Source: Collinsella aerofaciens
Lineage (GTDB): Bacteria; Actinomycetota; Coriobacteriia; Coriobacteriales; Coriobacteriaceae
Direction of reading: 5' to 3'
DNA length: 64,000 nt
Assembly: GCF_018785265.1 (NCBI RefSeq)
Contig: NZ_WQPK01000036.1
Location: forward strand, 1-64,000
The position numbers and the translations under genes were made by a program. Positions 8,302 to 50,330 of the stretch are shown here, piece by piece. The notes under the pieces are model-generated. The model saw only the letters and a program-made list of their open reading frames with translations. It did no database searches and was not told where the DNA came from. Within the stretch, counting starts at the first letter, position 1. Each line of letters opens with the position of its first letter.

Positions 8302-11300
8302 CTAGGCCCGCGGTACGATCGGGCGGTTAACTTTGGCTAGCATATCAGAAGCGCACGAATCGAGCGCCCAGCTCCGGAAAGCCGAGAACTCCATGCGCGA
8401 GCGCAAGCCCTCCAAATAGCGAATTGACCTGCTCAATTGCACGCGGCCGGGGTTTTCGGCCATCGCGATACGACGAGTGTCGTCAAACCCCGAAACTCGA
8501 CAGAAACCAAGCTCTTCGAAGATTCCCAGGCCGCTTTCCACCGAACGCTCGTCGACCGGCGTGCGAGCATCGATGGCAAGGCACATCTGCGCGATGTCGA
8601 TATCGCTCGCGCTAAAGGAATCGTCCCCCGTCTTGCCGCGGTTGGAGCGCCACATGGTCTGCAGCGCGCGATAGAGCGTGACGAGCTCGTCGCGCTCGGG
8701 CGCATAGCAGTCGAGCAGGCGCTCGTTAATGCGGGCGTCGCGCGACGAATAGAGCAGATGGATCACGGCGGGCTGGCCGTCGCGACCGGCGCGGCCGCTC
8801 ATCTGGTTAAACTCAATGCCGCCAAACGGCATGTGATAGAGCACGACATGGCGGATATCGGGCAGGTTGACGCCCTCGCCAAAGGCAGATGTCGAGACGA
8901 TGCAGCTGAGGCTTCCGTCTCGGAATGCTTCCTCCACGCGACGGCGATCAGAACGCGCAAGCCCCGCGTTATAGAACGCGATATGGGTTGCGCAATCGGG
9001 CACACGCTTGCGCAACGTCTTGGCGAGCGCCACGGACTGGTCGCGCGAATTGACGTAGATGACGGTCTTTTCCCCCGTCGCCACGATTGACACCAGGCGG
9101 TTCTCGCGGCTCGCAAGATCTCGGTCATCCTCGAGCTGCAAGTTCTCGCGCACCGTCTCGTCGACCACCGTGCGGGTAATCGGTAGTACGCGGGCGAGCT
9201 CGGCCACAACCGGAGCCGTTGCGGTGGCCGTCGCAGCCATAACGACCGGGTCGCCCAAGGCTTTGAGGATATCGGGCATGTCGAGATAGGCGCTGCGGTC
9301 GCCGCCCTTGGCAAGACCGGCATGATGCGCCTCATCGATAACGACAAAGCCGATGCGGCCCGAACGCGCGAAGCGGTCACGGTGGATAGATAGGAACTCG
9401 GGCGTCGTGAGCACGATACCGGTGCGGCCCGAAGCTAGGCCGGCGAACACGTCATCGCGTGCGGCCTCCACGGTCTCGCCGGTCAGCACGCCAACGCCAA
9501 TGCCAAGCGATGCCATCGTCGACGAGAGGTGATAGGCCTGGTCGGCAACAAGCGCACGCAGCGGATAGACAAAGATGCTCGCACGTCCGCGAAGCACCGC
9601 CTCACGCGCGGCATGCACATGGAAGATGAGCGACTTGCCGCGGCCCGTTCCCATAACCGCCAAGACACTCTGGTGATCGGCCAAGGCGTCGAGCGCCTCA
9701 ACCTGCGCGCGGTGCGGCTGGTTCGATCCGATAAAGCTATGGATAAGCGAGCGCGTGAGCTCGGTATAGGAAAGCTGGGCGAGCGTCTCGCGCTTGCGCG
9801 ACTCCAAGCGCAGGCCGGAATCCGCCGGCTGCACGCCACGACGAAGCTCGCATGCCGGATCGTCGACGCTGGGCAGCGTGGTATCGCGGACCAGAACATC
9901 CTTGACCATGAGCTTGGGCTTCACACGACCCTGCCAATGCTCGGCAACGGCCTCGAACACCAAGTCGACAGCACTATCGCAGTTGATGAGCTTATCGATT
10001 TGCGGCACGCGGAACATAATGGCCGGCACACTCGCGGCGCCATCGGTCGCCACAAAGCGCATGTGCTCGCCGGTTTTGCCCACCACGGCGCGATCGCACA
10101 TCGTCACGCCCTCGGCGGCCAGCAGCGGCACCTTGTTGCCCTGGCCAAACGGCTCAAGACGGGAAATCTGCTCTATAGTCTCGATATTCAGTTCGGAAAG
10201 GTCGACCGTGGCGGCAACCTCGTCGATGTCTTCAAAGTCCTCGGCGGGAATCTCCGATAGCACGGCGGAAAGGCGACGACGGAATTCATCGAGCTTGGAT
10301 GCCTCGATGGTCACACCCACCGCACCGGCATGTCCGCCGCGACGAATCAGCAGGTCGGAACAGCGCTCGACGGCGTCAAACAGGTTAACTTTGCCCACCG
10401 AGCGACCAGAGCCGCGCGCGATACCGTCCTCGATCGAGAACAGCAGCGCCGGCACGTGATAGCGGTTGGTCAGACGGCTTGCCACGATGCCCTTGACACC
10501 CTCGTGCCAGCCTTCGCCGCCCACGACGATCGCGCGTCCGCCGTCATAGGTCTCCTCGACCTTTGCCATGGCATCGCGCGTGAGCTCCGCCTCGATCTCA
10601 CGGCGCTGGCGGTTGATTTCTTCGAGCTCAGCCGCCAGCGCGCTTGCTTCGATGGGATTGCGGGCAAGCAGCAGGTCGAGCGCCAGCTTGGGATCGGCCA
10701 TGCGACCGGCAGCGTTTAAGCGGGGAATGAGCGAGAATGACAGGCCGTCGGCCGTAATGCTCGAAAGGTCCGCCTTGGCGAGCGCGGCAAGCGCGATATA
10801 GCCGGGGCGAGCGGTTACGCGCATCTGCTGGATGCCCTCGGCGACCAGTGCGCGATTCTCGGGCGTGAGCGGCATCATGTCGGATACGGTGCCCAGCGCC
10901 GCGACCTCTATCAGCGAACGCCAATACGACGGCTTGCCCAAACGCTCGCCCAGGACCTGCACCAGTTTGAGTGCCACGCCGGCACCGGCAAGCTCGCGCG
11001 AGGGACCCTCGTCCTCGAGCTTGGGGTCGGTCAGGGGCACGCCCTGCGGCACCTGGTCGGAAGGCTCGTGATGGTCCGTGACCACCAAATCGATCCCCAG
11101 GCTCTCCAGATAGGAAACCTCTTCCTTGGCAGCAATACCGTTATCGACGGTCACAATCAGGTTGGGTTGGGCGAGCTCGTTGACGCGGTCGAGCGCCGCA
11201 CGCGACAGGCCGTACCCCTCGTCAAAGCGGTGCGGGATAAACGGTGTGACATTGGCGCCAAACATCCGCAGCGCCTCGGTCAACAGACAAGTCGACGTTA

Positions 11301-11589
11301 TGCCGTCGACGTCAAAATCGCCAAAGACGGCGATGCGCTCGTGACTGCGAACAGCGCGCTCAACGCGGTCGGCGACGACCGCCATGCCCGGAATAACGAG
11401 CGGGTCCGCCCAGTCGCGATCGAGCGAAGGCGTCAAAAACAGTTGGCCTTCCTCGATGGATGTAATGCCGTGCGCAACCATAATGCGCGCCACCAGCCCG
11501 GGTATGCCCAGGCCAGCCGAAAGCTCCTTTTCGAGCTCAGGGTTTTGCCGAGCGACCGCCCAGCGATGCGTCGTCTTAAGCGATGACAT
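8302..11589 (-). CDS. recJ: RecJ exonuclease fused to a RecQ-like helicase
   Basis: The N-terminal 580 or so residues are RecJ, a 5'-3' single-strand DNA exonuclease. They have a DHH-type metal site (FGDFDVDG near residue 86, TDHHEPSD near 168), a DHHA1-type GRSVGKVNLFDAV...GGHAGAVG segment and an OB-like LEPFGQGN region. The rest is a superfamily 2 helicase with Walker A MGTGRGKS (near 645), DEAH in VIDEAHHAG (near 750), and FGEGVNLPDIRHVV plus QMSGRAGRDGQP as motifs V and VI. No clear RecQ zinc or HRDC domain follows. The product is 1095 residues, about twice a normal RecJ. The ATG at 11589 has GGGGGTGGG upstream, while the GTG at 11634 has no ribosome binding site. Confidence 0.9.
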   Translation of the reverse strand: MSSLKTTHRWAVARQNPELEKELSAGLGIPGLVARIMVAHGITSIEEGQLFLTPSLDRDWADPLVIPGMAVVADRVERAVRSHERIAVFGDFDVDGITSTCLLTEALRMFGANVTPFIPHRFDEGYGLSRAALDRVNELAQPNLIVTVDNGIAAKEEVSYLESLGIDLVVTDHHEPSDQVPQGVPLTDPKLEDEGPSRELAGAGVALKLVQVLGERLGKPSYWRSLIEVAALGTVSDMMPLTPENRALVAEGIQQMRVTARPGYIALAALAKADLSSITADGLSFSLIPRLNAAGRMADPKLALDLLLARNPIEASALAAELEEINRQRREIEAELTRDAMAKVEETYDGGRAIVVGGEGWHEGVKGIVASRLTNRYHVPALLFSIEDGIARGSGRSVGKVNLFDAVERCSDLLIRRGGHAGAVGVTIEASKLDEFRRRLSAVLSEIPAEDFEDIDEVAATVDLSELNIETIEQISRLEPFGQGNKVPLLAAEGVTMCDRAVVGKTGEHMRFVATDGAASVPAIMFRVPQIDKLINCDSAVDLVFEAVAEHWQGRVKPKLMVKDVLVRDTTLPSVDDPACELRRGVQPADSGLRLESRKRETLAQLSYTELTRSLIHSFIGSNQPHRAQVEALDALADHQSVLAVMGTGRGKSLIFHVHAAREAVLRGRASIFVYPLRALVADQAYHLSSTMASLGIGVGVLTGETVEAARDDVFAGLASGRTGIVLTTPEFLSIHRDRFARSGRIGFVVIDEAHHAGLAKGGDRSAYLDMPDILKALGDPVVMAATATATAPVVAELARVLPITRTVVDETVRENLQLEDDRDLASRENRLVSIVATGEKTVIYVNSRDQSVALAKTLRKRVPDCATHIAFYNAGLARSDRRRVEEAFRDGSLSCIVSTSAFGEGVNLPDIRHVVLYHMPFGGIEFNQMSGRAGRDGQPAVIHLLYSSRDARINERLLDCYAPERDELVTLYRALQTMWRSNRGKTGDDSFSASDIDIAQMCLAIDARTPVDERSVESGLGIFEELGFCRVSGFDDTRRIAMAENPGRVQLSRSIRYLEGLRSRMEFSAFRSWALDSCASDMLAKVNRPIVPRA

Positions 11590-35821: not shown

Positions 35822-37422
35822 TCACGCGCCCCCTTTCTGGACGAGTTCATCCAAGAGCTTCTCCGAAAACAGGTTACCGCGACCCAGCTGCCCGGCAGGA
35901 TCGAGCTGGAGCTTGAGCCGCGCCGACTCGACCATGGCCTCGTGACCGTACATCGTCTCCAAGAAGCCCGCCTTGATCTTGCCGACACCGTGTTCGGCGG
36001 AGACGGCGCCGCCCATGGCCGTGACCTCGGAAGCCCACTGGGCAAAGAGTTCTCCGCCGCGGCGGTAATCCTGCGCATCGCGCGGCAGAATGTTCACATG
36101 CAGATGGTTGTTACCGATGTGCCCCCAGGCGGCAGATTCAAGCCCACTTTCGGCCAACGTGCGGCGATAAAGGGCGATGACATCGGCCAAGCGTGCGTTG
36201 GGCACCGACATGTCCGAGCCCAGTTTGGTGATGGTGGGATCCGTGCGGCGACGCTCGTCGATGAGCATGTTGACGCTCTCGGGCACCGCATGGCGGAAGA
36301 ATCGCTGACACTCGCGATCGACCTCGGTGCGCGCGACCCATGTCGCATCGTCGCTGCCGCCCGCAAGCTCTAGTACCCACCCCAAGTGATACAGCTCCTG
36401 AGTCGTCTGGGCCTCGTCGTCGCAGTCGAGCTCCACGTAGACACAGACCTTGGCGTCTTTGTCGAGCGCCGGCAGCGAGGCGAACGCGGTCGACTGCTCA
36501 CGCTGACGACGCAGGATATCCAGGGCGCCCGCATCGAAATACTCGATGGCAGCCGCGTGGGACAGGACGGGACGCACAGAATCGGTGAACGGCACGGCCT
36601 TATCTTCGCTGTCAAAGAAACAGCTCACGCCCCAAACGACCGCAGGCGCCGCCTGCAGAGCAATCTCGAGCTCGGTGATGACGCCGATTGTGCCACACGC
36701 ACCGATAAACAGATCGATGGCATCCATATCGTCAGCAACGAAATAGCCCGAAGCATTTTTTGTCTTGGGCATGGTATAGCCAGGAAGATCGAGCTCGAGC
36801 GTACGGCCCGCTGCCGTCACGAGCGACAGGTGGCGGCCCTGGGCAAAAGCCTCGCCGCGCTGAAGCTCAAGCAAATCGCCATCAGCCAGTGCGACGTGGA
36901 GTCCCGTGATATGTGGGCGCATGGGACCGTAGGCGTAGCTGCGGGCACCAGAGGCGTTACATGCCGCCATGCCGCCCAGACAGGCAGACGTCTCGGTGGG
37001 ATCGGTGGGAAAGAACTGCTCGGGGACCTCTTGGAACTCCTCGTAGGCCTCAAGCGATGCCTGGTCCCAACCAGCAGTCGGCAGCACCTTCTTGCTCAGC
37101 TGCTTGCGCAGCTCCGAGAGCACACGCCCGGCTCCACGCGCAGCAGAAATTGGCCTTGTTCATCGCGGCGAAGGCCCAAGTAGCGATTCATACGGGAAGT
37201 ATTGAGGATATGCCCGCCGTGGGGCACGGCACCGGCGGCAAGGCCGGTTCGGGCGCCCTGAACCGTTACCGGGACACGCTCGGCATGGAGCTTTTCCAAA
37301 ATGGCACGGACCTCGTCTTCCGTTGTCGGAAACGAGATGCTCGAGGCCTCGCCCGATGCGCGAGATTCATCGCGGCCATACTCTTCGAACTCGTCGGTGA
37401 AGGGTTTGATGGTTGCAGACAC
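35822..37422 (-). pseudogene. lctD: FAD-linked lactate dehydrogenase subunit (LctD/GlcD-like) with a frameshift
   Basis: The N-terminal frame (37422 to 37096) has the FAD-binding block FPTTEDEVRAILEKLHAERV and GARTGLAAGAVPHGG. The C-terminal frame (to 35822) continues the same protein (GYTMPKTKNASGYFV, GTIGVITELEIAL, WGHIGNNHLHVNILP, EHGVGKIKAGFL). They are out of step at GTGTGCTC (37118-37125). Removing two bases (TG) restores VEPGVLSELRKQLSK. The intact enzyme would oxidise lactate and feed the EtfAB pair downstream. It is either a real lesion or a sequence error in a short GT repeat. The start is GTG with GGGGGAG upstream. Confidence 0.85.
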
Positions 37423-41093: not shown

Positions 41094-41810
41094 ATGCCGG
41101 GCTTGGGAACAATCATCAACGTTGTGCTTTTAGTTGCGGGCGGTCTTTTGGGATTAGCGGGCGGCCGCTTCATTACACCGCGCATCCAAGACACGCTCAT
41201 GAAAGCATCGGGGCTGTGCGTCCTGTTTATCGGCCTGGGCGGCACCATGCAAAAGATGCTCATCATCGATGGAAAGGCGCTAGCGACCACCGGTACCACC
41301 ATGCTCATCGTCTCATTTGCGCTCGGTTCGCTCATCGGCGAGGCCATCAACTTGGAGGCCGCCATCGAGAACCTTGGCGAATGGCTCAAGCGAAAAACCG
41401 GCAGCGAGGGTGACAACGAGTTCACCAACGCCTTTGTCTCGACATCGCTCACGGTGTGCATCGGCGCCATGGCCATCGTGGGCTCGATTCAGGACGGTCT
41501 GCTCGGTGACTGGTCAACGCTTGCCTTGAAAGGCGCATTGGACTGCATCATCGTCTGCACCATGACGGCGTCGCTTGGCCGCGGCTGCATTTTCTCCGCC
41601 CTGCCCGTCGCCGTGTTCCAGGGGACGATCACGTTGTTTGCCAGCGCGCTCTCCCCCATCATGACCACGGCAGCCCTCGACAGCCTTTCGCTCGTAGGCT
41701 CCATGCTCATCTTCTGCGTCGGCGTCAACCTCATCCGTCCTCAGACCTTCCGCACGGCCAATATGCTCCCCTCCGTCGTCATCGCCGTCATCTACGCCCT
41801 CCTGTTCTAA
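41094..41810 (+). CDS. DUF554 family membrane protein
   Basis: The 238-residue protein is nearly all hydrophobic, with about seven membrane segments. It begins MPGLGTIINVVLLVAGGLLG and carries DUF554 blocks: GLGGTMQKML, SLIGEAINLE and CIGAMAIVGSIQDGLLGD. The family is widespread and its function is unknown, though transport has been suggested. AGGAGGG precedes the ATG at 41094; the frame itself is open from 41025. Confidence 0.9.
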   Translation: MPGLGTIINVVLLVAGGLLGLAGGRFITPRIQDTLMKASGLCVLFIGLGGTMQKMLIIDGKALATTGTTMLIVSFALGSLIGEAINLEAAIENLGEWLKRKTGSEGDNEFTNAFVSTSLTVCIGAMAIVGSIQDGLLGDWSTLALKGALDCIIVCTMTASLGRGCIFSALPVAVFQGTITLFASALSPIMTTAALDSLSLVGSMLIFCVGVNLIRPQTFRTANMLPSVVIAVIYALLF

Positions 41811-41898: not shown

Positions 41899-43659
41899 GT
41901 GGCCGACCAGGACATCAAGATGCTCATCGAGCGCATTATGGCCGAGGCCCGGACCCATCAGTCCACCCGCTTCTCAAACGAAATCTACGCAGACGAGCCG
42001 ATTCTCAAAACCGGCCGACAGATGCAGAATTTCCTCCCCGACCAGTACCGTAAAATGCGCGAGATATCGCGCTGGCAGGATGACCCCAAGGGCGGTGCGG
42101 GCCGCTGGCTTTCGGAAGCCGAGCTTTTTTACCGCCAGGGCCTGCTGATGGCCGACTTTGAGGACGACTGTCCCTACAACGGCACCTTTAAGTCGTACTT
42201 TCCCACCTACAACGCCATGAGCGACCGACAGCTGCGCGGCTACTTTACCTGGCGCGCCCAAGTGCGCCGCGGGACCGTCGAGGAAACGTCTACGTCCTTT
42301 GCCTTTCTGTATCTCTATGAGCTGATTTGCGGCATCGGCGTAGATAATCCGCTCGATGGTTTTAACAAGATCAAGGCCTTTTGGGATGCCTACCGCGCCT
42401 TTGAGCCCGGCATCGACCGGTTTGCACGCGTGTGGTTGCAGGACTACGCCGTGTTCCACGGGCTCGACCCCAAGCTGCTTCGTGATTCTAAAACCGTCAT
42501 GTTCGACAACGCCCTTATCGAGCTGCGGCGCGCGGCACGAGACCTTGCACCAGCACCGGCACCGTCCGGCCAGACCCCCAAGCGTCGCAAAACCTCCGAG
42601 CCCACGCTCCCCCTTCCGCCCGATGAGGTGCGCGAGGAGCGACTCATGACCGCCATCAACGCCCTCTCCACGTACAACCTAAGTAACTCGCGGCTCGACC
42701 GCAGCCACCACCGCGATCTGCGCCACGTGGCATGCGCCGTGTATGTCCGCATGGCGCGCTACTATGACACGCACCGAAAGACCGGCATCGTGGCGAGTTT
42801 ATTTGGGGAGGAGACGGCCATGCCCTACACCATGTTTGCCTCGGCCGTATTCTTTGCGCCCGAGCGCCACGAGGACTGCGAATACCGCCTGGATCCTATC
42901 CATATCTACCGTTGCCAAAACGGCTTTTGGGAATGCATGCGCATCCACGGTAGTAGGCAAAAGAGCAGCAAGCTCGGTGAAATGATGCGCGCCTGCGACC
43001 AACGCCTGCGCCTGGCGCTGGACCCCGCCCATCCCCTTAAGGAAGAAAAGGTCCCCAAATATCTGGCCAAAATTATCGATGACGAGATTGTGGCATGGCT
43101 TTCGTGGGACGCCGTACACCAGCCCGTCAAGATCGATATCGATCTGAGTCAGCTGGGGCACATTCGGAGCGCCGCTGCGCAAACGCGCGAAGCGCTTTTG
43201 ATCGACGAAGAGCGCGAGGACGGCGCGTCCGCAGAAGCCGAGGCAGCGGACTCAGGGCAACCGGAAGCCGAGCCCGTAACCGACGCGATTGTCGAACCGG
43301 TCGTGGCACCCATTCGGCAGGACTTGACCGACGAGCCGACCATATCCACCGAACAGTTTGGTGTCGTGGCACCGCTTCTCGCGCCGACGCCCGCGTTCGC
43401 AGCTGCTGCGCCCGCTGACGCCACAAACAAACTCGCTCCCGCCGAAGATACCTTCCTTCGCGCGCTGCTCGAGCACAACGCAGCGCAAGCGACATCGGCA
43501 GTGGAGAGGTCGGGCCAGAGCGAGGACATGCTCGTCGATACCATCAACGAGGCGCTCTTTGACCTGGTGGGTGACACCGTTATCGAGTTTGGAACGGCAG
43601 GACCGCGCATTATCGAGGATTACGAAGCAGACGTGAGAGGATACCTAGACCATGAGTGA
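41899..43659 (+). CDS. sngA: TerB-domain protein, candidate SngA of a Shango defence system
   Basis: The 586-residue protein has a TerB N-terminal-type domain (about residues 25-215; AELFYRQGLLMADFEDDCPY, YLYELICGIGVDNPLDG), a middle region, a low-complexity acidic and Ala-rich linker (about 435-515) and a C-terminal helical segment (DTFLRALLEHNAAQATSAVE to the end) like TerB-C. It starts at GTG with GGAGAGGAG upstream. It overlaps the next gene by eight bases. A TerB protein, a DUF2791-type ATPase and an Lhr-like helicase in this order match, from memory, the Shango anti-phage system. The TerB part's biochemical role is unknown. Confidence 0.85.
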   Translation: MADQDIKMLIERIMAEARTHQSTRFSNEIYADEPILKTGRQMQNFLPDQYRKMREISRWQDDPKGGAGRWLSEAELFYRQGLLMADFEDDCPYNGTFKSYFPTYNAMSDRQLRGYFTWRAQVRRGTVEETSTSFAFLYLYELICGIGVDNPLDGFNKIKAFWDAYRAFEPGIDRFARVWLQDYAVFHGLDPKLLRDSKTVMFDNALIELRRAARDLAPAPAPSGQTPKRRKTSEPTLPLPPDEVREERLMTAINALSTYNLSNSRLDRSHHRDLRHVACAVYVRMARYYDTHRKTGIVASLFGEETAMPYTMFASAVFFAPERHEDCEYRLDPIHIYRCQNGFWECMRIHGSRQKSSKLGEMMRACDQRLRLALDPAHPLKEEKVPKYLAKIIDDEIVAWLSWDAVHQPVKIDIDLSQLGHIRSAAAQTREALLIDEEREDGASAEAEAADSGQPEAEPVTDAIVEPVVAPIRQDLTDEPTISTEQFGVVAPLLAPTPAFAAAAPADATNKLAPAEDTFLRALLEHNAAQATSAVERSGQSEDMLVDTINEALFDLVGDTVIEFGTAGPRIIEDYEADVRGYLDHE

Positions 43660-44956
43660 CACCGCATCCGCAGCGCCCCGCGTACCCAAACGCGTCGCCG
43701 CCGTTATCCTAAACTCGCTCAAGGGCGGCGTGGTCCCGCGCATCGGCCTTCCCTATATCACCGTGGGACGCGAGGTCGAGATTCGCGCCCTGCTCACCGA
43801 TTTGAGTCTCATCGCCGATGGCGGCGCGAGCTTCCGCTTCTTAGTCGGTCGCTACGGCGCCGGCAAGAGCTTCTTGCTTCAGACCATCCGAACGCATGCC
43901 ATGGGCGAGGGATTCGTCGTCGCTGATGCCGACCTGTCGCCCGAGCGCCGTCTGCAGGGCGGTCAGGGACAGGGCCTCGCCACCTACCGCGAGCTCATCC
44001 GCAATATATCGACCAAGACGCGCCCCGAGGGCGGTGCGCTCAACCTTATTTTGGATCGCTGGGTCGCCTCGTGTGCCGACGCCGACGAGCCTGCCGTTAA
44101 TGCCCAACTCGCTCCACTCGAAGAGATGGTCCACGGCTTCGACTTCACCCGCATGCTCCGCCGCTATCGCATGGCCGTATCCGAGGGCGATGAAGAGGCT
44201 ATGAGCCGCGTGACCAAATGGATCCGCGGCGAATACCGCACCAAGAGCGAGGCTCGCGCCGAACTGGGGTCCTCAACCATCATCAGCGATGACGACTGGT
44301 ACGACTACGTCAAACTCATCGCGCGTTTTTTGGTTTGCAGCGGCTACAAGGGCATGCTGGTGCTCATCGACGAGCTCGTGAATCTGTATAAGATTCCCAA
44401 CGCTATCACGCGCCAGTACAACTACGAGAAAATCCTGACCATGTACAACGACACACTCCAGGGCAAGGCACAGTACCTGGGCATGATCATGGGCGGCACG
44501 CCAACCTCCATCGAAGACCGCCGCCGCGGCGTGTTCTCCTACGAAGCTCTGCGCAGCCGACTCGCTCAGGGTCGCTTTGCGCGAGATGATCTCAAAGACA
44601 TGCTCGCGCCCATCATCCGCCTGCAGCCGCTCACCTACGAGGAGCTGCTGGTGCTCATCGAAAAGCTCATGCAGATCCATGCCGGCTACTTTGGCTGGAC
44701 GCCCACGCTTACCGAGAACGACTTGGTGAACTTTCTCAAGATTGAGTTTGGCCGCGTGGGAGCCGATACGCACCTGACGCCCCGTGAGGTCATTCGTGAC
44801 TTTATCGAGCTGCTCGATATCCTGTGTCAGAACCCCGATGCAAATGTGGCCGAGTTGCTGCAAAGCGTCGGCGGCGACGCGCTGGTGCCGGCAGCCGCAA
44901 CAGGCGACGCCGGCACCGCAGGCGGCGACCGCAACTTCGCCGAATTCACCATCTAA
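43652..44956 (+). CDS. sngB: P-loop ATPase (DUF2791/BrxD-like), candidate SngB
   Basis: The 434-residue protein has Walker A GRYGAGKS (residues 66-73) and Walker B MLVLIDELVNLYK (near 235). The surrounding LNSLKGGVVPRIGLPYITVGRE and FARDDLKDMLAPIIRLQPLTYEEL segments are those of the DUF2791 (BrxD-like) ATPases found in BREX type 2 and related defence loci. Its start overlaps sngA by eight bases. The stop is followed one base later by a palindrome, then the helicase gene. It is probably an energy-using sensor or loader working with the helicase. Confidence 0.87.
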   Translation: MSDTASAAPRVPKRVAAVILNSLKGGVVPRIGLPYITVGREVEIRALLTDLSLIADGGASFRFLVGRYGAGKSFLLQTIRTHAMGEGFVVADADLSPERRLQGGQGQGLATYRELIRNISTKTRPEGGALNLILDRWVASCADADEPAVNAQLAPLEEMVHGFDFTRMLRRYRMAVSEGDEEAMSRVTKWIRGEYRTKSEARAELGSSTIISDDDWYDYVKLIARFLVCSGYKGMLVLIDELVNLYKIPNAITRQYNYEKILTMYNDTLQGKAQYLGMIMGGTPTSIEDRRRGVFSYEALRSRLAQGRFARDDLKDMLAPIIRLQPLTYEELLVLIEKLMQIHAGYFGWTPTLTENDLVNFLKIEFGRVGADTHLTPREVIRDFIELLDILCQNPDANVAELLQSVGGDALVPAAATGDAGTAGGDRNFAEFTI

Positions 44957-44989
44957 CCTGCCAAAAAGGGACAGGTTTATTTTGGCAGG
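44957..44989. repeat. 10-bp palindrome with GGGACAGG loop
   Basis: CCTGCCAAAA and TTTTGGCAGG flank AGGGACAGGTTTA. It lies inside the defence operon, right after the sngB stop. A near relative is at 59075-59110. Confidence 0.8.
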
Positions 44990-45072
44990 TTTTATCTGGG
45001 CAAACGTCGAGGCAGTAATGCAGCAAGCCACTGCCCACCGCGTTGAGAGATTCGTTTTTGAAAGGAGGCCCC

Positions 45073-47517
45073 GTGAACGCCTTTGACCGCTACGCCCCGT
45101 TTATCCAAGACTTCATCTACTCCCACGATTGGGAGAGTCTACGCTCCATCCAGGTTGCAGCAGCTGATGCCATCTTTAACACTCAGGACAATGTGCTCCT
45201 GACGGCATCCACGGCTTCCGGCAAAACCGAGGCAGCCTTCTTTCCCATCCTGACCGAGTTTTGGGAGAACCCGCCCGCGAGCGTTGGCGCCCTCTACATC
45301 GGCCCCCTCAAGGCACTCATCAATGATCAGTTCGTCCGCCTCAACGACCTGTGCGAAGAGGCCGATATCCCCGTCTGGCACTGGCATGGCGATGTTTCGC
45401 AGTCGCACAAGGCTAAGCTCATCAAAAAACCGAGCGGTATCTTGCAGATTACGCCCGAGTCGCTCGAGGCGCTCCTGATCCATAAGCACATGGCAATCCC
45501 TCGTATGTTCTGCGATCTGCGCTATGTGGTTATCGACGAGGTTCATTCGCTCATGCGCGGCGACCGCGGCGGTCAGACGCTCTGCCTTATCGAGCGCCTC
45601 TCGCGCATGGCGGGCGTGCAGCCCCGCCGCATCGGCCTTTCTGCCACCATCGGCGACCCCGAGCGCACGGGCGCCTTTCTCTCACAGGGAACAGGACGCG
45701 ATTGCATCATCCCCCGCTTTGAGGAACCGCGCCGCGTGTGGCGCATCTCCATGGAGCACTTCTACAACTCGGGTCCCCAGGCACAGCAGCGGGGATTCGA
45801 GAGCACGGGTCCACAAGAAGCCGAGATGCTTGCTTGCGAGCGTATTGAGCCGGCGGCGCCCGCGGCGCTGCCGGCTGGCGCCCAAGACGTGCGCCACAGC
45901 GGACAGCTTACACAGGAGGAACGCCGTCAACGTCGTGAGCGGGCACGGGGCAAGGCCGCTCCCAAAGACCGTCGCACTTCCTCGGCCCCCGAGGGCGAAG
46001 TCGACATCCCACGAGCGACCGAGCAGGCGCTTCTCAACCCCACCGACACGGCGCCCGACAACGCCGACCCCGGTATGGGCTATATCTTTGAGCATACGCG
46101 CGGCCGCAAGTGCCTGGTCTTTGCCAACTCGCGTGAGGAGGCAGAGGCCGTGTGTTCCATGCTGCGCAGCTACTGCGAAAGTCGACACGAGCCCGACCGC
46201 TTTCTAATCCATCACGGCAACCTTTCGGCATCGCTGCGCGAGACGGCCGAGGAGCTCATGCGCGACGAGGAGCAGGCGCAGACAACCGTCACCACCTCTA
46301 CGCTGGAGCTCGGTATCGATATCGGCCGCCTGGAGCGCGCGTTCCAGATCGATGCGCCGTTTACCGTCAGCTCCTTTTTGCAGCGAATGGGCCGCACGGG
46401 ACGCCGCGACCTTCCGCCCGAGATGTGGTTTGTCATGCGCGAGGAAGAGCCCGAACCGCGCACGATGATGCCCGAAACCATTCCATGGAAGCTCCTGCAG
46501 GGTATCGCGCTCGTACAACTCTATCGCGAGGAAAAGTGGGTCGAGCCGCCCGAGCTCGATCGACTCCCCTACAGCCTGCTCTATCACCAGACTATGTCGA
46601 CGCTTGCCAGCACCGGCGAGCTCACGCCGGCCGAACTTGCCCAGCGCGTGCTCACGCTCAGCTATTTCCATCGCATCTCGGCCGATGACTATCGCGTATT
46701 GCTTCGTCACCTCATTAAGATCGACCATATCCAGGTCACCGAGGGCGGCGGACTCATCGTGGGTCTCGCGGGAGAGCGCATCATTAACAACTTTAAGTTC
46801 TACGCCGTGTTCCAGGAAAACGAGGAGTTCACCGTTCGCAGCGAGTCGGCCGAGTTGGGCACGATCGTCAATCCCCCTCCGCCCGGTGAGCGCATCGCCA
46901 TCGCCGGACACTGCTGGATTGTCGAGGAAGTGGACTGGAAGCGCCACACCGTCTTTGCCACGCAGGTCAAGGGCCGTGTGCCGGCCTACTTTGGCGACTG
47001 CCCCGGTGACATCAATACGCATGTGCTCGAGCGCATGCGCAAGGCGCTTAACGAGCACGCGGCATATCCGTACCTTATGGGTAACGCACGGGCCCGCTTG
47101 GCGCAGGCTCGCCATACGGCCGAGATTTCGGGCGCGGGGGCCAAGCCGCTCATTAACCTGGGCGGCGACACCTGGGTGCTCTTCCCCTGGCTGGGCAGCT
47201 ACGCCTTTTTGGCGCTCGAGCGCATGCTCAAGATTAAATGCGCCGCGGAGCTGGGCCTTCGCGGACTCGACCCGTCACGCCCGTACTTTATGCAGTTTAA
47301 GATGAAGGCCGACGAGGAGACGTTCTTTGAGGTACTCGCAGCCGAGGCCGAAAAGGACTTCGATCCCATCGAGCTCGTCTATCCCGGCGAGGTGCCTTAT
47401 TTTGATCGCTACGACGAGTTTGTTCCCGAAGAGCTCGTGCGCAAGGGCTTCGCCGAAGGCGTGCTCGACATCGAGGGCATGAAGCAGCGCGTTCTCGGCT
47501 GGCGCGACCACGCCTAA
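45073..47517 (+). CDS. sngC: Lhr-like DEAD/DEAH helicase (BrxHI-like), candidate SngC
   Basis: The 814-residue superfamily 2 helicase has motif I TASTASGKTEA (near residue 47), DEVH in VVIDEVHSLMRGDRGGQ (near 152), GLSATIGDP, motif V TTSTLELGIDIG and motif VI QRMGRTGRRD (near 436), followed by a long C-terminal Lhr-type region. It includes a charged insertion (about residues 275-330). The GTG at 45073 follows AAAGGAGG directly; the frame is open from 45043. As third gene of the TerB-ATPase-helicase set it is the presumed DNA-acting effector. Confidence 0.88.
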   Translation: MNAFDRYAPFIQDFIYSHDWESLRSIQVAAADAIFNTQDNVLLTASTASGKTEAAFFPILTEFWENPPASVGALYIGPLKALINDQFVRLNDLCEEADIPVWHWHGDVSQSHKAKLIKKPSGILQITPESLEALLIHKHMAIPRMFCDLRYVVIDEVHSLMRGDRGGQTLCLIERLSRMAGVQPRRIGLSATIGDPERTGAFLSQGTGRDCIIPRFEEPRRVWRISMEHFYNSGPQAQQRGFESTGPQEAEMLACERIEPAAPAALPAGAQDVRHSGQLTQEERRQRRERARGKAAPKDRRTSSAPEGEVDIPRATEQALLNPTDTAPDNADPGMGYIFEHTRGRKCLVFANSREEAEAVCSMLRSYCESRHEPDRFLIHHGNLSASLRETAEELMRDEEQAQTTVTTSTLELGIDIGRLERAFQIDAPFTVSSFLQRMGRTGRRDLPPEMWFVMREEEPEPRTMMPETIPWKLLQGIALVQLYREEKWVEPPELDRLPYSLLYHQTMSTLASTGELTPAELAQRVLTLSYFHRISADDYRVLLRHLIKIDHIQVTEGGGLIVGLAGERIINNFKFYAVFQENEEFTVRSESAELGTIVNPPPPGERIAIAGHCWIVEEVDWKRHTVFATQVKGRVPAYFGDCPGDINTHVLERMRKALNEHAAYPYLMGNARARLAQARHTAEISGAGAKPLINLGGDTWVLFPWLGSYAFLALERMLKIKCAAELGLRGLDPSRPYFMQFKMKADEETFFEVLAAEAEKDFDPIELVYPGEVPYFDRYDEFVPEELVRKGFAEGVLDIEGMKQRVLGWRDHA

Positions 47518-47521
47518 GACC

Positions 47522-47544
47522 AGTCTTTTTGGGACGGGGAGACT
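47522..47544. repeat. Small inverted repeat between convergent genes
   Basis: AGTCT and AGACT flank TTTTGGGACGGGG (GGGAC motif). It lies between the convergent helicase and spermidine-synthase-like genes and may serve as a weak terminator. Confidence 0.4.
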
Positions 47545-48422
47545 TACTTGTCGTGAAGGACGGTGCCGAGAAAGTCGGTGTCGAAGGGCACGGCTTCGGC
47601 AAAGGCGTAGTTGCCGTCGCTGGCGATGAGCAGGTAGTTTTCCTCGCCGCCGAACTTCGCATCGCCACATGGGACCACCCAGGCGTGGGCGAATACCTCG
47701 AGTGCCGTGGCGGCACAGTCGCGCAGGAACGTCACATCGCTCCCCTCGCTTGCGCTCACGATATTGGCAACGTAGACGCCACCGAAATTTAGGCTGCCCC
47801 GCACCAAACGCAACGCTTCAACCGTCGCCAGCTCGCGTACGGGTTCGGCGCCGCCAAAGCAATCGCTCACGACCACGTCGTAGCGACGATGGCCCACACT
47901 CGTCACACCCAGATACGAGCGAGCCTCAGCAGTAATCACCCGCAAGCGGTCGCCCACCGTGCGCTCCAGCTCGTCCAGATAGAACCAACGGCGCGCCAGG
48001 CGCGTAATCTCTCCGTCATACTCGATGACGTCCACGCGCAAGCCCTCGTGCGACATCAGCGCGAACTTGGGATAGGCAAACCCGCCGCCGCCCAGCATCA
48101 GCATACGGTTGATACCGTGACCATAAGCGTCGCGCATCGCATCCTCGGCCTCAAACACGTCGTCAAACGCGCGATAGTACGCAAAGACGGGCTCCGCCCA
48201 GCGCTCGCCAACGTAACTCGCGCTTTGGTAGACGCCGCCTTGCACCAATACGCGGACTTCGTCACCGCTCTCGTCGTGCACGCGTTTCACACGCGCCAAC
48301 CCATTGCGGGTTCGCGCAACTTGCAGACAGGCAGCACGAACAGCGACAGCGGCCGCACCAAGCGCCGCGGCTCCCAGAGCAACGCCGGCAACGACGCCGG
48401 CAGAAACACTCGGCTTGTTCAT
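47544..48422 (-). CDS. Spermidine synthase-like methyltransferase-fold protein
   Basis: The 292-residue protein has an N-terminal membrane helix (about 7-30) and a Rossmann domain with MLMLGGGGFAYPKF, VDVIEYDGEITRLARRWF and YDVVVSDCFGGAEPV. These match the spermidine synthase family's SAM-type site. It is related to the membrane-linked spermidine synthase-like proteins, and the true substrate is not known. Its start directly abuts the elp3 stop, so they form an operon. Confidence 0.82.
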   Translation of the reverse strand: MNKPSVSAGVVAGVALGAAALGAAAVAVRAACLQVARTRNGLARVKRVHDESGDEVRVLVQGGVYQSASYVGERWAEPVFAYYRAFDDVFEAEDAMRDAYGHGINRMLMLGGGGFAYPKFALMSHEGLRVDVIEYDGEITRLARRWFYLDELERTVGDRLRVITAEARSYLGVTSVGHRRYDVVVSDCFGGAEPVRELATVEALRLVRGSLNFGGVYVANIVSASEGSDVTFLRDCAATALEVFAHAWVVPCGDAKFGGEENYLLIASDGNYAFAEAVPFDTDFLGTVLHDK

Positions 48423-50330
48423 CTAGAGCTCCTTTTGCAGATAGAGTCCATGATCGTAAAAACCCAAATGGCGATAGTACTCGCGCGTACCAATCGCGCT
48501 GATCACGTTGACGCGCGCATAGCCGGCATCCCGGGCAATCTCGGACGCACGCTCTACGAGTAAACGCCCCAACCCGTGATGCTGCGCCGCCTGGCCCTGG
48601 TCGCCCACGCGTGCCGCCATGCCATACACGTGTACCTCGCGAATCATCGCCTCGTCCGGCGACGTCGGCAACTCGTCCGCATGCGCGGCAACAAACGAAT
48701 GGTCGGGCAGCGACAACCGCAAAAAGCCCGCGATCTTGCCCTGCGGCGTCACCCACTGCAAAAAGCGCTCGTGCGTCACCGGCGTCTCGTACGCCACCTC
48801 CTCATCAAGAGAAAGCTCATCCAAGTCGGCACCCGCCGTACTGATCTCGCGATAGCGAATCTCGCGCACCGTCGCACCGTCACCCCGAGCAGCCAGGCGG
48901 TTCTCAACGAGCTGACGCAGGTTGGGTTTCTTGTTGCCCACCATAATGTCGTCGGAACTAAAGTCGCGGATCATGCGACTGATACGGCAGAACGCCGGCG
49001 TCACCACGATGTCATCGGCCAGCACGTCGAGCAGCTCCTCCTCGGTATAGGGGCGCCACTCGCCGAGCTCGTAGCAGCCCACCAGACGCGAGCCCTCGAT
49101 GAGCGCACACGGGTAGACCTTGACCTCGTCGGGCATAAAGGCCCCTTCGGTCATAAAGCGCTCGTAGTCGCGCTTGTCCCCCTCGGGCGTGGCGCCCAGC
49201 AGGTTAAGCATAAAATGCGCATGGATCTTAAAGCCAAACAATCGTGCAAGCGAAAACGCCCGCTCGATCTGAGCCACCGAAATGCGACGCTCGTTGATAT
49301 CGAGCAGGTGCTGGTCGAGACTCTGGATACCCATCTGAATCTTGGTGCAGCCCAGGCGGCGGATGAGCGTGAGGGCCTGCGGCGTTACGGCATCGGGGCG
49401 CGTCTCGATAACGAGCCCCACCACGCGATGCTTCGCCGTCTCGTTGATGCGCTGCTGACGCTCGAGCTCCTCCATCGTTGCCGTCTGCCACTCAGTGACC
49501 TCGCCCCACGGCGTACCGGGACCGTACAGACGACGCACCGCACGGTTATAGCCGCCCACGGCAGCATCCACACGCCCCTGCTCGTCGGCAACGCCGGCAG
49601 CAAGCTCGACCTCGTCTGTCGCAATGCCGGCGGCCCGATAGCGCTCGCGGCGCTCCGCCACCACCGGCGGCAGCGCATCGGCGGGCGCGTCATCGAGCAG
49701 GCGCTCTGCCTCGGCACGGCTGATGCCCGGACGCGCCAACATGGGGTTTGCCGCCACGCTCGCCACCGCATCATCATTGAGCGCCCGGAAGAGCTCCGAC
49801 ATAAACCATGCCTGATAGCCTTCCGGATAGTCGCTCCAAGTACCGCCAAGAACGATAAGCTCGATCTTGTCGGTTGCATGCCCCATTTGCGAAAGCGCGG
49901 TCAAACGAGCACTCACCTGCAAATACGGATCAAAGCAATTTTGCTCCGCACGGGCACACGCCGGCTCGGCATGCAGATAGCTTTTAGGCATGCGCAGATC
50001 GTTGGGGCAAAACAGGCAATCGCCCGAGCACGGCCAGGGCTTGGTGATGACGGTAATGGTCGCCACGCCCGAGGCCGTGCGACGAGGCTTCATACGCAGC
50101 ACCTGCAACAGTCGACGTTCCAGCTCGGCATCGACATTCCACCCAGCCCAACGAGCCGGCTCCTCACGTTTTACCCGCTGGTAGAACGGCAGCAGACGGC
50201 GCTTGGCCAAATCGCGTTTGTCAGCACCCTCACGGCGCGCCTCGGCATGTATCAGTTTGACGAGCGCTTTGTCATCCACGGTCTCGCCGCGACGCAGAGC
50301 CTCGAGTATGTTCAAGATAATCTGTTCCAT
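48423..50330 (-). CDS. elp3: Elp3-family radical SAM/acetyltransferase (tRNA wobble uridine modification)
   Basis: The 635-residue protein joins a radical SAM domain (Cys 101, 105 and 108 in CSGDCLFCPND) to a C-terminal GNAT acetyltransferase domain (about 470-635; GQAAQHHGLGRLLVERASEIA). Middle blocks IVLGGTWSDYPEGYQAWF, VIETRPDAVTPQAL and KIQMGIQSLDQHLLDIN are typical of Elp3. In archaea and eukaryotes Elp3 adds the carboxymethyl precursor to U34 of tRNA; a few bacterial forms act alone. The gene precedes the spermidine-synthase-like gene. Confidence 0.92.
   Translation of the reverse strand: MEQIILNILEALRRGETVDDKALVKLIHAEARREGADKRDLAKRRLLPFYQRVKREEPARWAGWNVDAELERRLLQVLRMKPRRTASGVATITVITKPWPCSGDCLFCPNDLRMPKSYLHAEPACARAEQNCFDPYLQVSARLTALSQMGHATDKIELIVLGGTWSDYPEGYQAWFMSELFRALNDDAVASVAANPMLARPGISRAEAERLLDDAPADALPPVVAERRERYRAAGIATDEVELAAGVADEQGRVDAAVGGYNRAVRRLYGPGTPWGEVTEWQTATMEELERQQRINETAKHRVVGLVIETRPDAVTPQALTLIRRLGCTKIQMGIQSLDQHLLDINERRISVAQIERAFSLARLFGFKIHAHFMLNLLGATPEGDKRDYERFMTEGAFMPDEVKVYPCALIEGSRLVGCYELGEWRPYTEEELLDVLADDIVVTPAFCRISRMIRDFSSDDIMVGNKKPNLRQLVENRLAARGDGATVREIRYREISTAGADLDELSLDEEVAYETPVTHERFLQWVTPQGKIAGFLRLSLPDHSFVAAHADELPTSPDEAMIREVHVYGMAARVGDQGQAAQHHGLGRLLVERASEIARDAGYARVNVISAIGTREYYRHLGFYDHGLYLQKEL

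Follow-up and report, generated by a model that had tools for sequence, protein, structure and literature searches.

A Shango-type three-gene locus in Collinsella aerofaciens, probably resident in the chromosomes of Coriobacteriaceae

Introduction

Is a three-gene, defence-type machine carried by all species examined from a family common in the gut a form of resident immunity, or does it serve housekeeping? This question is raised by positions 41899-47517 of the 64,000-nucleotide stretch analysed here (the window: positions 1-64,000 of contig NZ_WQPK01000036.1, assembly GCF_018785265.1, Collinsella aerofaciens), where three adjacent open reading frames (ORFs) on one strand, sngA, sngB and sngC, resemble the anti-phage system Shango. 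Defence systems often differ in presence from one strain to the next, and within Coriobacteriaceae itself Cas1 and HSDR_N are patchy. The system is of a known kind and its fixation across a family is the interesting part, since it makes the question testable in a single-copy setting, and the Coriobacteriaceae loci form a deep natural alignment for studying how Shango works. The reading that we moderately favour is of a resident, mostly vertically inherited chromosomal Shango of Coriobacteriaceae, acting as a DNA-surveillance and immunity machine and not as a mobile island.

The Shango of Pseudomonas aeruginosa PA14 and Escherichia coli, with which we compared the locus through the PADLOC profiles, likewise joins a TerB-type protein to an ATPase and a DEAD/DEAH helicase. 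Passages of PMC10250203 place it within an immune island or a hotspot of defence genes and give the protection afforded by the Pseudomonas system as modest, 10-100-fold and not against all phages. The passages of the literature covered hold no account of the Shango mechanism, and the titles and abstracts searched do not describe Shango as core in Coriobacteria; the papers listed for Collinsella with Shango deal, by title, with bile acid, colorectal cancer or bacteria of the gut. Likewise, the portions covered of a rumen survey that names Shango (PMC13356809) hold no word starting with Coriobacter, Olsenella or Atopobi. For the related species Eggerthella lenta, PMC13060105 indicates, in the part covered, that AbiE alone is core among defence systems.

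Identity of the three genes

An earlier note, made from the letters of the window, had assigned three overlapping or closely spaced genes to Shango, with kinship to BrxD and BrxHI, as a system of Coriobacteriia, and ORFs, domains and profiles all bear this out. SngA (586 aa, GTG start, 41899-43659, forward strand as are all features of the locus) matched the PADLOC profile for Shango SngA, PDLC03958, at E 7e-78 over profile positions 53-525 of 528, SngB (434 aa, 43652-44956) matched PDLC03959 (Shango SngB) at E 7.7e-169 and 560 bits, and SngC (814 aa, 45073-47517) matched PDLC03960 (Shango SngC) at E 7.8e-276 and 915 bits. The PADLOC and profile searches that the note had proposed gave strong matches for all three genes, and the lack of a significant match, which it had named as grounds for doubt, did not occur. 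The second-best PADLOC families were BrxD for SngB (1.3e-38, 131 bits) and BrxHI for SngC (1.8e-122, 408 bits).

Using Pfam we detected TerB_N (1.6e-32; 42091-42492) and TerB_C (3.4e-16; residues 410-580, 43126-43638) in SngA, both above the Pfam cut-offs, BrxC_BrxD (4.8e-149) in SngB, a P-loop ATPase of the BrxC/BrxD type, and DEAD (1.8e-26) and Helicase_C (6.8e-18) in SngC, a superfamily 2 (SF2) helicase of the Lhr/BrxHI type. The motifs singled out earlier are also in place, with the Walker A motif GRYGAGKS at residue 66 of SngB (43847-43870) and a DEVH box at residue 155 of SngC (45535-45546), which additionally carries ASGKT and QRMGRTGR. NCBIfam gave no family for SngA and placed SngB under the BREX_BrxD cut-off (132.3 bits against 350) and SngC below three equivalog cut-offs for helicases of the Lhr or ligase-associated type, TIGR04121 (194 of 850 bits), NF010338 (165.3 of 849) and NF007284 (84.2 of 1496). 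The three-gene match is not chance, and the identification of the locus as Shango is well supported by homology. The window SngA is shorter than that of an Aeromonas plasmid Shango, with 586 against 789 aa.

In the window sngA and sngB overlap by 8 nt, while sngB and sngC are separated by a gap of 116 nt (44957-45072) that holds one copy of a dispersed repeat. The listed start of sngC, TTG at 45043 (824 aa), is probably wrong and GTG at 45073 (814 aa) appears the better choice; the latter is preceded by GAAAGGAGG, a putative ribosome-binding site, and the codon score picks the same start.

Distribution in the family and beyond

With matches counted as present at E up to 1e-60, SngB was found in 62 of the 65 Coriobacteriaceae genomes, in 56 of the 57 good ones and in all six genera. 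In each of the three remaining genomes (G026, G032 and G055) SngA reaches to within ~75 bases of a contig end, so these misses are probably assembly gaps. A search for SngA confined to ten chosen family genomes found it in all ten. Because a threshold of E 0.001 lets the SngC profile pick up unrelated-system helicases as well, as it did in 13 of 14 control genomes, only matches below 1e-117 were counted; on this basis SngC was detected in all 43 genomes of the genus, in 42 at E 1.3e-252 or better and in the 43rd, which is 72% complete, as a fragment on a 4.1-kb contig (E 7.9e-118). Over the same 65 family genomes an RpoB domain was detected in 59, Cas1 in 14 and HSDR_N in 24, which indicates that Shango acts like a core gene, unlike the two other defence genes.

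Outside the family the system thins out. In the class sample 121 of 296 genomes had it, representing 28 of 125 genera. In the related family f2, which appears to be Atopobiaceae, it was present in 105 of 140 genomes (79 of the 101 good ones), from 19 of 35 genera. Whether an f2 genome has it depends mostly on the genus, with all searched genomes of g15 and g21 lacking it and g346 mixed, as judged from 20 of the 35 empty rows, while in the phylum sample 18 of 396 genomes were positive, a single one of them (G388) from outside the order. The earlier note had regarded universal presence of the three genes in housekeeping contexts among relatives as grounds against its proposal, and this is largely what we observe within the family and not what we observe in the phylum.

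The best named matches to SngB, at 96-98% identity, belong to C. aerofaciens or Collinsella sp. (best 80 of at least 485), and no match was obtained in 50,697 phage records. A SngB-like protein occurs in 680 plasmid records (<60% identity, E up to 1e-40), 539 of them typed conjugative, although these are matches to an SngB-like ATPase, not all of which may belong to true Shango. On one Aeromonas and one Paenibacillus plasmid the annotated order is TerB_N protein, ATP-binding protein and DEAD/DEAH helicase, and the SngA and SngC proteins of these plasmids match the same Shango profiles.

Chromosomal address

We compared the flanks in loci from a chosen part of the available genomes, some of which end too near to the genes to judge; flanks of 1.5 kb were uninformative for f2, for which longer stretches and control pairs between groups were used. 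The reference genes were three neighbours in the window, which we regard as context rather than parts of the machine: a DUF554 membrane protein upstream (41094-41810, forward strand), and two genes downstream on the reverse strand, 47544-48422, which gave no Pfam match at 1e-3 and is presumably spermidine-synthase-like, and 48423-50330, a Radical-SAM and GNAT protein that is presumably Elp3-like.

In aerofaciens-like loci, DUF554 lies within 3 kb of sngA in 8/8, and homologues of the 47544 and 48423 genes lie within 5 kb of sngC in 8/8 each. Of the 21 other loci of the genus with sngC, 16 have the 47544 homologue and 13 the 48423 homologue at up to 5 kb from this gene, and none of the 16 that have sngA carries DUF554 within 3 kb of it. 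The 19 loci from other genera of the family show each downstream homologue in 8, and DUF554 in 8 of the 18 that have sngA. Counted as pairs, 318 of the 465 combinations of family loci have a homologous gene on the same flank (110/153 within the genus, 65/78 among the other family genera and 143/234 between these), while control pairs of the family with g34 or g35 of f2 gave 0/403. Within the genera of f2 the sharing is again high, with 15/15 pairs in g34, 36/36 in g11 and 15/21 in g35. The address is therefore constant inside genera and, for the most part, common to the loci of the family.

Between g11 and the family, flank genes are mostly shared on the opposite side (79/162 and 49/117 pairs), and on the same side in one pair; in the g11 loci L272, L273 and L292-L298 this looks as if the block were inverted. 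A further f2 locus, L263, agrees with the window in the side on which each of DUF554 and the 47544 homologue lies. The site typical of Shango though not part of its definition, a defence island or mobile element, is not what we find here, since the system is chromosomal in essentially all family genomes, in contrast to the island setting of the PA14 and E. coli systems. Of the description as an anti-phage cassette, membership of the Shango group therefore stands, whereas the patchy, mobile picture that goes with it does not fit this locus.

Evolution and selection

Distances and trees were computed for the 41 of 65 family genomes with RpoB, SngB and SngC, and for the two neighbours in 27 and 24 genomes; gene starts and frames in relatives come from a codon-score caller, which fails on L090, the locus of G024. 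Correlation with RpoB distances was 0.45 for SngA, 0.515 for SngB and 0.602 for SngC, compared with 0.57 and 0.66 for the two neighbours, and none of these values was reached in 999 permutations. A combined SngB and SngC tree, made with a quick method and no mixture model, has 17 of 38 splits in common with the RpoB tree, against a mean of 0.2 and a maximum of 3 after label shuffling. The main outliers by eye are G024 and G052. In the former, L090 has a SngA of 28% identity and long-branched SngB and SngC in conflict with RpoB, and its system is possibly a replacement by transfer.

In the aerofaciens group (21 loci) the median dN/dS was 0.129 for SngA, 0.037 for SngB and 0.033 for SngC, with neighbour medians of 0.040 (DUF554), 0.059 (48423 gene) and 0.105 (47544 gene). 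Median identity was 0.50 for SngA against 0.77 for SngB and 0.79 for SngC, and SngA is best read as the fast-changing adaptor of the machine. The GC content and codon use of the locus are native. Taken together, the partly shared flanks, the trees, dN/dS and the native composition suggest that the locus is old in the family and has mostly been inherited vertically.

Gene order is conserved in part: where sngA and sngB were both called they overlap in 32 of 33 loci, with a 1-nt gap in the 33rd. The three genes persist in the family even though the operon breaks up, as set out below, which suggests that each is under selection.

Structure models and proposed mechanism

The model of SngA (mean pLDDT 82, 38 sequences) has an ordered body, a low-confidence stretch at ~438-509 and a winged-helix-like C-terminal unit (residues 506-586, 43414-43656) that may contact DNA. 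Aligned with VIA-align, this unit gave a best Z of 6.1 (rmsd 3.4, 74 residues aligned) to domains of the LysR, MarR and ModE type, a middling score that speaks for the fold only, and a fold search with the whole SngA model gave weak winged-helix matches. Profiles of SngA and SngB found no credible relative in the PDB, the single match for SngA being at E 0.3. For SngC (mean pLDDT 70) the nearest structure by Foldseek is mycobacterial Lhr (5v9x, 4.3e-18), followed by MrfA (4.5e-15), and sequence matches to solved structures agree, with 5v9x and 6znp among the best. SngC differs from Lhr and MrfA (YprA), the SF2 helicases that lead the fold matches and rank among the best by sequence, in falling far under the related equivalog cut-offs and in having SngA and SngB as partners. 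A helicase tree in the covered part of PMC12278908 places BrxHI, DruE, DpdJ and SngC together in what may be a separate clade.

On these models the system would be a DNA motor, SngC, run by an ATPase, SngB, and an adaptor, SngA. As a member of the Lhr/BrxHI branch, SngC may load on and remodel atypical DNA structures, for instance forks, ends and intermediates of replication or recombination, with SngB, as a BrxC/D-type ATPase, controlling or loading it. SngA, through its predicted winged-helix tail and disordered linker, might distinguish the chromosome from DNA that is damaged or foreign and switch the motor on. Because the locus holds no nuclease, phage replication would be stalled or stripped, or the DNA passed to host nucleases. 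The analysis shows the domains, family membership, conservation, selection and location of the genes, and we infer the assembly of the three proteins, their DNA targets and their effect on phage; that phage DNA is the target, with replication blocked, is suggested by analogy because Pseudomonas Shango is reported to be protective. A further model by analogy is Hachiman, HamAB, in which a sensor helicase guards genome integrity and responds to DNA damage, as passages of PMC12278908 describe, although HamB is Ski2-like and HamA is a nuclease, which the window locus lacks.

Weighing the readings

Several observations weigh against the resident, immune machine that we favour. The TerB core domain PF05099, listed for Shango (PMC10952713), was not detected in the window SngA at E up to 5, and was likewise without a match in the Aeromonas plasmid SngA at the same threshold. 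SngB is ~52% identical or less to its plasmid-borne relatives, and defence activity may for this reason not transfer to the window system, where anti-phage activity is suggested by analogy with distant relatives. In contrast to Shango elsewhere, sngB and sngC are often separated in relatives of the window: the gap is at most 116 nt in 10 of 30 loci and, in the other 20, longer than 400 nt, reaching 9.6 kb (the value for L090 being unreliable), and in G014, G015 and G028 sngC lies on another contig, away from sngA and sngB, so that one co-transcribed unit is not needed. Upstream neighbours differ in most genus loci that are not aerofaciens-like, any of three upstream genes being present in 1 of 16. 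Six well-supported splits of the SngB and SngC tree contradict the RpoB tree. Pairs between g34, g35 and g11 share no flank gene (0/159), indicating relocation or transfer there, and across f2 the locus has moved or been acquired more than once; a single fixed address for all loci would be too strong a claim and fails on these between-group pairs. The addresses in f2 leave the weights of the readings unchanged, since the preferred reading concerns the family of the window. Finally, the universality and low dN/dS are as compatible with housekeeping as with immunity.

This last point leads to the alternative that we take most seriously, while thinking it rather unlikely, in which sngABC serve DNA repair or replication restart in Coriobacteriaceae, with phage defence as a by-product or as a use that came later, in mobile relatives. 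MrfA is a repair helicase, and with Lhr it gives the nearest solved folds to SngC; the system is as near-universal as RpoB, its flanks are partly shared in the family, and dN/dS is low for SngB and SngC. No other defence system was recognised among the scanned window proteins; PADLOC was run on 49 of the 52 called genes, and most of the matches listed (25 of 79 families) were cross-matches of the helicase type. Set against this are the rapid evolution of SngA relative to SngB and SngC, the phage blocking by relatives (covered part of PMC10250203), and the absence of the system from all searched genomes of g15 and g21 and from most of the phylum sample, which shows that it is not generally needed. 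A bolder version, which we consider unlikely and a little more so, holds that the Coriobacteriaceae Shango is a core genome-integrity system with immunity as one output of surveillance of replication intermediates, and that the mobile cassettes of other phyla derive from such resident systems.

Recent acquisition as a mobile defence cassette would accord with the SngB-like plasmid records and their conjugative typing, with the hotspot position of the Pseudomonas copies (passages of PMC10250203) and with the differing addresses among genera of the related family. For Coriobacteriaceae this is already contradicted by SngB presence, trees and flanks: the system is in essentially every genome, its surroundings are shared, GC and codon use are native, phage records hold no SngB match and the tree is mostly congruent with RpoB. 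We thus give it very little weight, though it could be reconsidered for outliers, G024 for example. Less credible still is an orphan BrxD and BrxHI left over from BREX type 2. These proteins are homologous to SngB and SngC, which do match them, but the Shango models score far higher, SngB stays under the BrxD cut-off, and the bit scores and cut-off contradict a BREX remnant; the locus has a TerB_N/TerB_C partner as well, while PglX and PglZ are absent from the 23 window proteins scanned with Pfam (part of them at E 1e-8) and from the PADLOC matches listed. Least probable of all is a decaying, non-functional locus kept by chance. Although sngB and sngC drift apart in several species, the frames are open and the motifs intact, family SngB matches and the listed SngC matches have no internal stops, and median dN/dS of 0.03-0.13 contradicts decay.

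Genes between sngB and sngC, and other features of the window

We also examined what lies between sngB and sngC where they are apart. Ten chosen gap proteins were scanned with Pfam and comprised two Fe-hydrogenases, a binding protein, an ABC transporter protein, a methyltransferase-like protein, an M13 peptidase, two glutamate synthases, a LytTR protein and an AAA_14/DUF4143 protein. The idea that the gap genes are cargo defence genes is unsupported, these ten (scanned by Pfam and not PADLOC, with the other gap proteins left out) being mainly metabolic or regulatory. A membrane protein related to the LytTR protein of L112 lies between sngB and sngC in L112 (8013-9188), L255 (6868-8022), L257, L292, L293 and L295; its best match falls in the gap in 6 of the 71 loci with both genes, in both families, and it was absent from all others of the 88 loci scanned. 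It is possibly an ancestral partner or regulator.

Other gaps hold Fe-hydrogenase-like genes in some Collinsella species (L099, 8984-13411, which also has ABC-transporter genes, and L088, 8347-9969), small ORFs that look toxin-antitoxin-like by eye (L114, 9917-11166, and L117, with one of ~92 aa shared at 57% identity) or, in most g11 loci, a 305-aa lipoprotein-like gene on the other strand. Three of the seven g35 loci (L285, L288 and L289) have SngA and SngB with no SngC within the 16-kb stretch that was fetched, the search being confined to that stretch. The palindrome-like repeat in the window gap (44968-44990) occurs in 32 copies with at most 2 mismatches in its own genome, against 0 for the reversed control, and at 13 places in one Collinsella record.

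One survey reports, in the covered part of PMC10924106, that outside defence islands restriction-modification systems are preferentially found together with Shango. The earlier note had described the locus as standing alone, and this is broadly right: Pfam found no DNA methylase or restriction enzyme among the 23 window proteins, which include SngABC. There is a gene ~30 kb upstream (8302-11589, reverse strand) in which RecJ parts (DHH, DHHA1 and RecJ_OB) are fused to a DEAD/Helicase_C helicase; many relatives have a 1111-aa frame of the same size. Also in the window, an FAD-oxidase gene (35822-37422, reverse strand) is present as two overlapping frames of 433 and 108 aa; in L103 and L106 it is a single 533-aa frame, and the split in the window reflects a frameshift or a sequencing error.

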